Source: Thiorhodococcus drewsii AZ1
GTDB taxonomy: Bacteria > Pseudomonadota > Gammaproteobacteria > Chromatiales > Chromatiaceae
Assembly (NCBI RefSeq): GCF_000224065.1
Contig: NZ_AFWT01000002.1
Coordinates: forward strand, 124,001-188,000
Length of the DNA: 64,000 nucleotides
Direction: 5' to 3'
Shown: in pieces, positions 32,372 to 39,898 of the stretch
Position numbering within the stretch: position 1 is the first letter of the stretch
Layout of the letters: each line of letters begins with the position of its first letter
Translations under genes and position numbers: made by a program
The notes under the pieces: generated by a model
Databases searched by the model: none
What the model was told of the DNA's origin: nothing
What the model saw: only the letters and a program-made list of their open reading frames with translations

Positions 32372-33256
32372 TCATTCAGGCCTTCGAGCGGCCGACCAGA
32401 ACTCCCGCAGAAAGGTCCAGGGCAGGCCATCCAGTGAATAGGAATGTCCGTCGAGCTCACGCACGGGCCAGACGCCAACCAGCGTGTTGGTCAGCAAGAG
32501 TCCCTGGGAGCGCTCGATCTCCGATGGCCCGAGCGGCTCGACGCGACAGGGAATGCCGGCGGTCTCGGCCCTTTCAAGGAGCAGGGCGCGACGCGTCCCG
32601 GCGATACCGGCCCGGTCGACCGGAGGTGTCCGTAGCGCACGACCGTCCCAGAGAAAGGCGTTGGTCATGGTCCCGCCGACCAGGAATCCGGATGGATCGA
32701 GCATCAGCCCCTCCTCGATCGTCCCATTCTCGGCCTCCAGACCATCCCACTCGCGACGCGCGAGCACCGAATCCAATCGATTGAGGTGCTTCATCCCGGC
32801 CAACGCGGGGTTTAACGAGGCCGGCGTTCGACAATAGCGCGCGCGAATCCCCTCCTCCCGGAACCGATCGACCCCGGAAGCAAGAGGATAGACCAAGAGC
32901 AAACGATGCGGCTCAGGCGCAGCTGGAGGCCGATAGCCTCGACCACCACGACCACGGGTGACGAGGATCTTGAGAACCGCCGAATCGAGTCCGGCGACGA
33001 GCGCCCGCACCTCGCGACCGAGGTCGTCCGCAGCGGGAAGCGGGATACCCAGACGCTGGGCACCAGCATACAAGCGATCGAGATGACGACGCCACTGACA
33101 GGGACGTCCATCCTGGATCAGAACCGTCTCGAACAGACCGTCGCCATACTGAAGCCCACGATCGAGAACCTCAATGAGTTCGGCCGGACGGCCATCGATA
33201 AAAACCACCGGGGACGCATCAAGCGTCCCCGGTGGTTTCAGTCTTTCATCCGTCAT
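32372..33256 (-). CDS. pabC: Aminodeoxychorismate lyase
   Basis: PLP enzyme (branched-chain aminotransferase fold) that converts 4-amino-4-deoxychorismate to p-aminobenzoate and pyruvate in folate synthesis. Motifs: VLDRGLQYGDGLFETVLI, the Lys-containing MKHLNRLDSVLARREW and EGLMLDPSGFLVGGTMTN. The start is ambiguous. ATG at 33256 gives 294 residues, but the first 16 residues (ending near TLDASPV) are encoded by a perfect terminator hairpin and are not conserved; GTG at 33208 gives MVFIDGRPAE, matching the usual family N-terminus, and leaves an 82-bp gap after fabF. Neither start has a convincing Shine-Dalgarno. folK, another folate gene, lies elsewhere in the window. Confidence 0.93.
   Translation of the reverse strand: MTDERLKPPGTLDASPVVFIDGRPAELIEVLDRGLQYGDGLFETVLIQDGRPCQWRRHLDRLYAGAQRLGIPLPAADDLGREVRALVAGLDSAVLKILVTRGRGGRGYRPPAAPEPHRLLLVYPLASGVDRFREEGIRARYCRTPASLNPALAGMKHLNRLDSVLARREWDGLEAENGTIEEGLMLDPSGFLVGGTMTNAFLWDGRALRTPPVDRAGIAGTRRALLLERAETAGIPCRVEPLGPSEIERSQGLLLTNTLVGVWPVRELDGHSYSLDGLPWTFLREFWSAARRPE
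33200..33238 (-). terminator. Strong intrinsic terminator in the pabC start region
   Basis: A 16-bp perfect stem (33202-33217 with 33223-33238, arms rich in ACCGGGGACGC) closes a 5-base loop and, on the minus strand, runs into TTTTT at 33204-33200. It comes about 55 bases after the fabF stop and lies either within the first codons of pabC (ATG start) or over its GTG start. Confidence 0.85.
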
Positions 33257-33263
33257 GCCCAGA

Positions 33264-33285
33264 GTTTCAACGCGCGCGTTGAAAC
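33264..33285. promoter_or_regulatory. 22-bp perfect palindrome between fabF and pabC
   Basis: The sequence GTTTCAACGCG is followed directly by its exact reverse complement, giving a perfect 22-bp palindrome five bases after the fabF stop. It could be an operator for a dimeric regulator or an RNA hairpin preceding the terminator. I saw no second copy in the window. Confidence 0.5.
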
Positions 33286-33290
33286 CCGAG

Positions 33291-34529
33291 TCAGGCGCGC
33301 CGGAAGATCAGGGTTCCGTTGGTGCCGCCAAAGCCAAAGGAATTGGACAGCGCAACCTCAATCGGCATCTCACGCGCCGTATTGGGCACGTAGTCGAGAT
33401 CGCAGTCCGGATCCGGAGTCTGATAGTTGATAGTCGGTGGAGCCACCTGATCGCGAAGCGCCAGAATGGTGAAGATGGCCTCGGCACCACCAGCCGCGCC
33501 CAGCATATGACCGGTCATGGACTTGGTCGAGCTGACGCACAGCTTGTAGGCATGATCGCCGAATGCACGCTTGACGGCGCGCGTCTCAGCCGCATCGCCC
33601 GCAGGAGTCGAGGTGCCATGCGCGTTGATGTAGTCCACCTGCTCCAGGTTGAGACTCGCATCGTCGAGCGCCGTGAGCATGCAGTTCGCCGCACCCTCGC
33701 CGTCTTCCGACGGAGCGGTCATATGGTAGGCATCCGAGTTCATGCCAACGCCCACCAGCTCGGCATAGATGGTGGCACCGCGCGCCTTGGCGCGTTCGTA
33801 CTCTTCGAGCACCACCACGCCGGCACCGTCGCTGAGGACGAAACCATCGCGTTCCTTGTCGAAGGGACGACTCGCGGCCTCCGGTGCGTCGTTACGGGTC
33901 GAGAGCGCACGTGCTGCGGCGAATCCACCCAGACCGACCGGTGAGGTCGCCATCTCGGCACCACCCGCGACCATGACGTCGACGTAGCCGTGACGGATCA
34001 TGATGGCGGCCTCGCCGATGTTGTGCGCACCCGTGCTACAGGCGGACACGATCGAGTAATTCGGACCCTTGAGACCGAATTTGATCGACAGGTTGCCAGC
34101 CACCATGTTGATGATGTTAGCGGGCACGAAGAACGGCGAAATGCGCCGCGGTCCCTTATCGCGATACGCCTGGTAGTTGTTCTCGATACCGGTGATTCCA
34201 CCGATGCCGGAGCCGATCGCGACACCGATCCGACGGCAGTTGGACTCGTCGATCTCCAACCCGGAGTCGGCGATGGCCTGACAGCCGGCCGCCATGCCGT
34301 AGTGGATGAACTTGTCCATCTTCTTGGCTTCTTTTTCCGAGATGTACTGACTCGGATCAAAACCATAGATTGGACCGCCGAAGCGGGTACTGAACGGTTC
34401 GATATCGAAATGGGTAATGGGCTTGATCCCGCTTCTGCCAGCCAGAATGCTGTCCCAGGAGGATTTGACATCTAGACCAACGGGGGCCACGAGGCCCAAA
34501 CCGGTGACGACTACCCTTCTTCCTGCCAT
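33291..34529 (-). CDS. fabF: 3-oxoacyl-ACP synthase II
   Basis: Condenses malonyl-ACP with acyl-ACP to extend fatty acids. The 412-residue enzyme carries the active-site Cys in [13 protein letters not shown], the two catalytic His in [15 protein letters not shown] and [15 protein letters not shown], and the C-terminal [12 protein letters not shown] motif. It is 99 bp downstream of acpP and upstream of a palindrome and a terminator, so most fab transcripts probably end after it. Confidence 0.97.
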
Positions 34530-39847: not shown

Positions 39848-39898
39848 AAAAAAAAATCCCCGCCCTCTTCGCCGGAGTCGATGGCGAAGCGGAGGGGA
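39848..39898 (-). terminator. Strong intrinsic terminator upstream of yceD
   Basis: On the minus strand a stem of about 15 bp (CTTCGCC core at 39867-39873 with 39883-39889, extended by C-G, U-G and A-U pairs to 39857 and 39898) precedes nine consecutive T. It ends a minus-strand transcript that cannot be the fab operon, since the operon starts downstream of it. Confidence 0.85.

Follow-up and report, generated by a model that had tools for sequence, protein, structure and literature searches.

In the 64-kb window, the whole stretch of DNA that was analysed, from a bacterium related to purple sulfur bacteria, the fab operon is followed by a GC-rich hairpin with a T-tract (hairpin B), and the stem lies inside the open reading frame of the next gene, pabC, if the ATG at 33256 is used. 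Judging from the sequence, we consider it rather probable that this element is the usual acpP-fabF intrinsic terminator, moved into the coding sequence of pabC, where it would terminate transcription partially and step down the expression of the genes that follow. The same bases of pabC would then encode protein and limit the output of downstream folate, cell-wall and replication genes.

Results

Layout of the fabF-pabC junction

All genes at the junction are on the minus strand; fabF is followed by pabC and then by mltG, tmk, holB and pilZ. The gap between the fabF stop codon and the pabC ATG measures 34 nt and contains, in this order, 5 nt, a complete palindrome (hairpin A, 33285-33264) and 7 nt. 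The features are:

33291-34529, minus strand: fabF, which closes the fab operon and has its stop codon at 33293-33291 (open reading frame and NCBIfam TIGR03150)
33264-33285, no strand assigned: hairpin A, perfect 22-bp palindrome GTTTCAACGCGCGCGTTGAAAC in the fabF-pabC gap (homologous hairpins in Thiobaca and three genomes of genus g56)
32372-33256, minus strand: pabC, ATG at 33256, with a 17-residue N-terminal extension (TIGR03461 pabC_Proteo above cut-off, from residue 20; frame of the extension kept in G001)
33202-33238 (scored core 33205-33235), minus strand: hairpin B, AAACCACCGGGGACGC-TTGAT-GCGTCCCCGGTGGTTT, a perfect 16-bp stem with a 5-nt loop in pabC codons 7-18; predicted intrinsic terminator
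33199-33204, minus strand: T-tract TTTTTA, from the pabC codons GTT TTT ATC
33206-33208, minus strand: GTG at codon 17 as an alternative start, located in the 3' arm of stem B; disfavoured

Both the perfect 22-bp palindrome after fabF and the perfect 16-bp stem at the start of pabC were found where the original prediction had placed them. Stem B starts at pabC codon 7, spans 33238 to 33202 and leads on into TTTTTATCGATGG.

Hairpin B as a predicted intrinsic terminator

Terminators were scored with a d'Aubenton Carafa-type function (a decaying T count added to the stem energy per base), taking the best of nested stems. With d = 50.5, hairpin B outscores every other predicted intrinsic terminator on both strands of the window. 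A single further locus has d > 10, and none was found in three one-strand shuffles; scored on the plus strand, the same stem reaches 25.7. The 16-bp perfect stem is stable and GC-rich (core dG -30 kcal/mol), and its minus-strand reading leads into TTTTTATCG. Directly 3' of a 13-bp core stands TTTTTATC, three T of which can pair with AAA. A scan of the window with a fixed terminator consensus did not return the site, because three T out of five are consumed by the full 16-bp stem. Once the A-U pairs at its foot are left unpaired in the scoring, hairpin B comes out as the best terminator in the window. Such A-U pairs at the stem foot are common in real terminators.

The proposal that the fab operon ends in an intrinsic terminator overlapping the start of pabC is supported by the best score in the window and by the recurrence of this position in a second genus, whereas the operator-controlled switch proposed along with it is not. 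The corollary that expression of pabC-mltG-tmk-holB-pilZ would need polymerase to read through is supported as well.

The second-best predicted intrinsic terminator of the window (39857-39898, minus strand, d = 39.8, nine T after the stem) stands ahead of the yceD-rpmF-plsX-fab genes.

Hairpin B is maintained

Hairpin B is no accident; it is maintained through paired changes. Its stem is the longest perfect stem in the window, just as hairpin A is the longest perfect zero-loop palindrome. From dinucleotide shuffles, 0.13 palindromes as long as hairpin A are expected per window, and perfect stems of at least 13 bp did not occur in any of 15 such shuffles. The RNA of the junction folds with z = -5.6. 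When the window segment was recoded synonymously with local codon usage, none of 3000 recodings matched the native energy of hairpin B (-36.6, compared to a mean of -19.2 and an sd of 3.8), and none had a 16-bp stem, the longest being 10. The codons of the T-tract are rare, GTT and TTT making up 9.9% and 12.5% of their families in the genes of the window.

The only other genome available for comparison within the genus, G001 (L008), differs from the window at seven arm positions but retains the potential for 15 of the 16 pairs, with the pabC frame unchanged. The double changes turn A-U into G-C and C-G into G-U, and the chance of keeping the pairing is 0.007 in a simple model that ignores coding. 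Only 2 of 3000 synonymous recodings matched the energy in G001. Its terminator score is d = 11.5, with only TTT after the stem.

Three genomes of another genus, g56 (L046, L063 and L048), have CCCGCAGC...GCTGCGGG as their stem instead, followed by TTTTTATTGAYGG. Stem and TTTTTATYGAYGG (TTTTTAT) end at the same nucleotide relative to the conserved pabC codons (d = 25-27), and L048 has a change from G-C to A-T at pair 7, the one compensatory pair in this trio. As 11%, 4% and 18% of the synonymous recodings are at least as stable here, this test does not by itself establish selection on structure in the trio, and the case stands on position, T-tract and the compensatory pair. The PabC tree, whose deep forks are weak, does not unite the trio with the genus of the window, speaking against common ancestry of the two in-frame terminators; their placement within the open reading frame probably arose twice in Chromatiaceae.

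Family-wide, structure at this place is modest: z < -2 was found in the B segment of 20% of the junctions, compared to 5% of control segments, and most other Chromatiaceae do not have a hairpin in this segment. Predicted terminators are present at 22 of the 129 fabF-pabC junctions examined, E. coli among them, mostly in the gap. One gap, that of L061 (G177), measures 313 nt, with AGGATT/AATCCT repeats in a long inverted array that looks like an insertion of repeats.

The comparison also bears on the question of whether hairpin B, which begins about 18 nt after the pabC start codon, acts on the mRNA and not on the polymerase, either by protecting the fab segment against 3' exonucleases or by tuning pabC translation, with termination playing a minor part. 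That G001 keeps the stem with a short T-run, and that several relatives have U-less hairpins 3' of fabF, would fit such a role. However, it does not account for a T-tract made of rare codons right after differing stems, in the window and in the three genomes of the other genus, and we regard this explanation as unlikely.

The start of pabC

The original prediction had placed the terminator either inside the first codons of pabC or over a GTG start. The former stands with the ATG at 33256, while the GTG (codon 17, 33208-33206), lying within the 3' arm, is disfavoured. If PabC nevertheless started at GTG 33208, hairpin B would be an ordinary intergenic terminator that just touches the start. The protein would then begin with MVFIDGR and align with the E. 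coli type of start, relative to which codons 1-17 are an extension, and PabC family models indeed match only from residue 18-20. Against this start speak not only its position within stem B, but also the extension of G001, which retains length, frame (VSDDILKPVGALSAPSLVSIDGR versus MTDERLKPPGTLDASPVVFIDGR) and 7 residues after the start. Moreover, L046 and L063 have the same kind of terminator, yet no ATG, GTG or TTG from codon -17 or -14 to the conserved region, so that, barring an unusual start, the hairpin there belongs to the coding sequence. A start at the GTG therefore seems improbable to us.

Near the pabC start, TTGAAA is found 8-11 nt upstream in three genera (L007, L043, L044, L045, L046, L048 and L063), and no clear Shine-Dalgarno sequence is visible upstream in these loci. 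In L046, L063 and L048, the pabC ATG lies between the arms of an 8-bp inverted repeat, TTGAAACC...GGTTTCAA, which could hide the start codon in a hairpin.

A terminator within a reading frame might also be a regulated attenuator, with read-through depending on translation of pabC, perhaps by ribosomes that restart after the fabF stop codon and melt hairpin B. The hairpin starts 18 nt into the open reading frame, where an elongating ribosome would open the stem, the fabF stop lies 34 nt upstream, a distance that hairpin A would shorten, and the ATG is not preceded by a clear Shine-Dalgarno sequence. However, no convincing antiterminator was seen: the minimum-energy fold retains both hairpins, and a 7-bp alternative pairing seen by eye (GGUUUCA/UGAAACC) would leave most of stem B intact. 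Polymerase arrives at the T-tract some 55 nt past the start codon, which would leave little time for initiation, hairpin A is missing in G001, and the equivalent junction of E. coli shows plain partial read-through (PMC6131387). Taken together, this makes a regulated attenuator quite unlikely. A riboswitch or other known RNA element can be dismissed, since no Rfam family matched at the junction up to E = 1.

We are a little more doubtful still about a broader scenario, in which the first pabC codons are a dual-purpose segment that also serves as a translation-sensitive terminator, restarting ribosomes decide on tmk/holB transcription, and the arrangement evolved independently in two or more lineages of Chromatiaceae. 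If true, such a terminator would link lipid synthesis to folate, cell-wall and replication genes.

Hairpin A and the operator question

Homologues of hairpin A occur at the same place in Thiobaca trueperi (TTTTTCAACGGTCCCGTTGAAAAA), G062, G057 and G060. Its outer arms, TTTC and TTGAAA, are identical across the five genomes of three genera, and the middle varies between genera with pairing mostly kept. Pairing is found in 91% of cells, as opposed to 29-53% with the partner strand slid; a shuffle test on the five sequences is not significant, and the covariation is only suggestive. Hairpin A is missing from G001, the other genome of the genus. Allochromatium and relatives have unrelated hairpins 3' of the fabF stop.

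Taking the palindrome for an operator, at which a bound regulator controls passage into pabC, has in its favour the perfect 22-bp symmetry and the identity of the outer arms. However, the genome contains no second site with up to 3 mismatches, and only one imperfect match with up to 2 when the centre is left free; the palindrome is absent in G001, and no promoter was found adjoining it. A varying middle with kept pairing is no less compatible with an RNA hairpin than with a protein site. The operator-controlled switch of the original prediction is therefore not upheld, and we consider an operator highly improbable. Nor is the palindrome a REP-like or mobile repeat, since its arms are not repeated as pairs and occur elsewhere only as isolated single arms with 1-2 mismatches. 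We take hairpin A for an RNA structure belonging to the 3' region of fabF, with a conjectural role, rather than for an operator.

Discussion

A model for the junction

According to the reading that we prefer, partial termination within pabC, many of the polymerases leaving fabF would stop around pabC codons 18-21. The fraction that reads through would express pabC-mltG-tmk-holB-pilZ, creating a step-down in stoichiometry, with high levels of the fab products and lower levels downstream. Stem B would also protect the 3' end of the fab mRNA. Hairpin A, the other hairpin in the 3' region of fabF and one that lacks a U-tract, may stabilise this end or may draw the fabF stop towards the start of pabC.

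A consensus scan found no promoter between fabF and pabC. With a terminator that leaves no gap behind it and without a consensus promoter, the genes that follow should depend on read-through or on promoters invisible to the scan. This counts against partial termination, because the essential genes tmk and holB would be among them. Also counted against it are the mere TTT after the stem in G001, the failure of the fixed scan to report the site, a score that picks the best among nested stems, and the lack of a hairpin in this segment in most other Chromatiaceae.

With unrelated stem sequences over the same codons in two genera, the junction makes a clean candidate for an intrinsic terminator that selection has retained where a protein-coding sequence begins. 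Should termination be confirmed, expression of the essential replication genes tmk and holB depends on read-through in these bacteria, and sites of this kind would escape terminator predictors that leave out coding sequence.

Comparison with known systems

The closest parallel is the acpP-fabF region of E. coli, with the same gene order and a predicted intrinsic terminator right after fabF (25-41 nt downstream in L146). Transcripts of E. coli acpP-fabF read through into pabC and mltG (PMC6131387). The E. coli terminator lies in a 119-nt gap before pabC, whereas it is inside pabC here, and a constitutive promoter is listed at the E. coli fabF-pabC boundary (PMC3946193), but none was found here.

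Internal terminators also set operon stoichiometry in the ABC importers of Ruminiclostridium (PMC9045158). They share with hairpin B a long GC-rich stem, a weak U-tract and a location between genes that need different expression, but they are intergenic, whereas the stem described here is coding.

Finally, premature 3' ends have been mapped in E. coli 5' UTRs and open reading frames, at or inside the starts of genes, some of them scored as intrinsic, as in ispU, others tied to translation, as in mdtUJI (PMC7815308). Hairpin B resembles them in its position at or inside the start of a gene. In contrast to mdtJI, where termination is Rho-dependent and involves a separate small upstream open reading frame, it is a predicted intrinsic site within the gene that follows an upstream operon.
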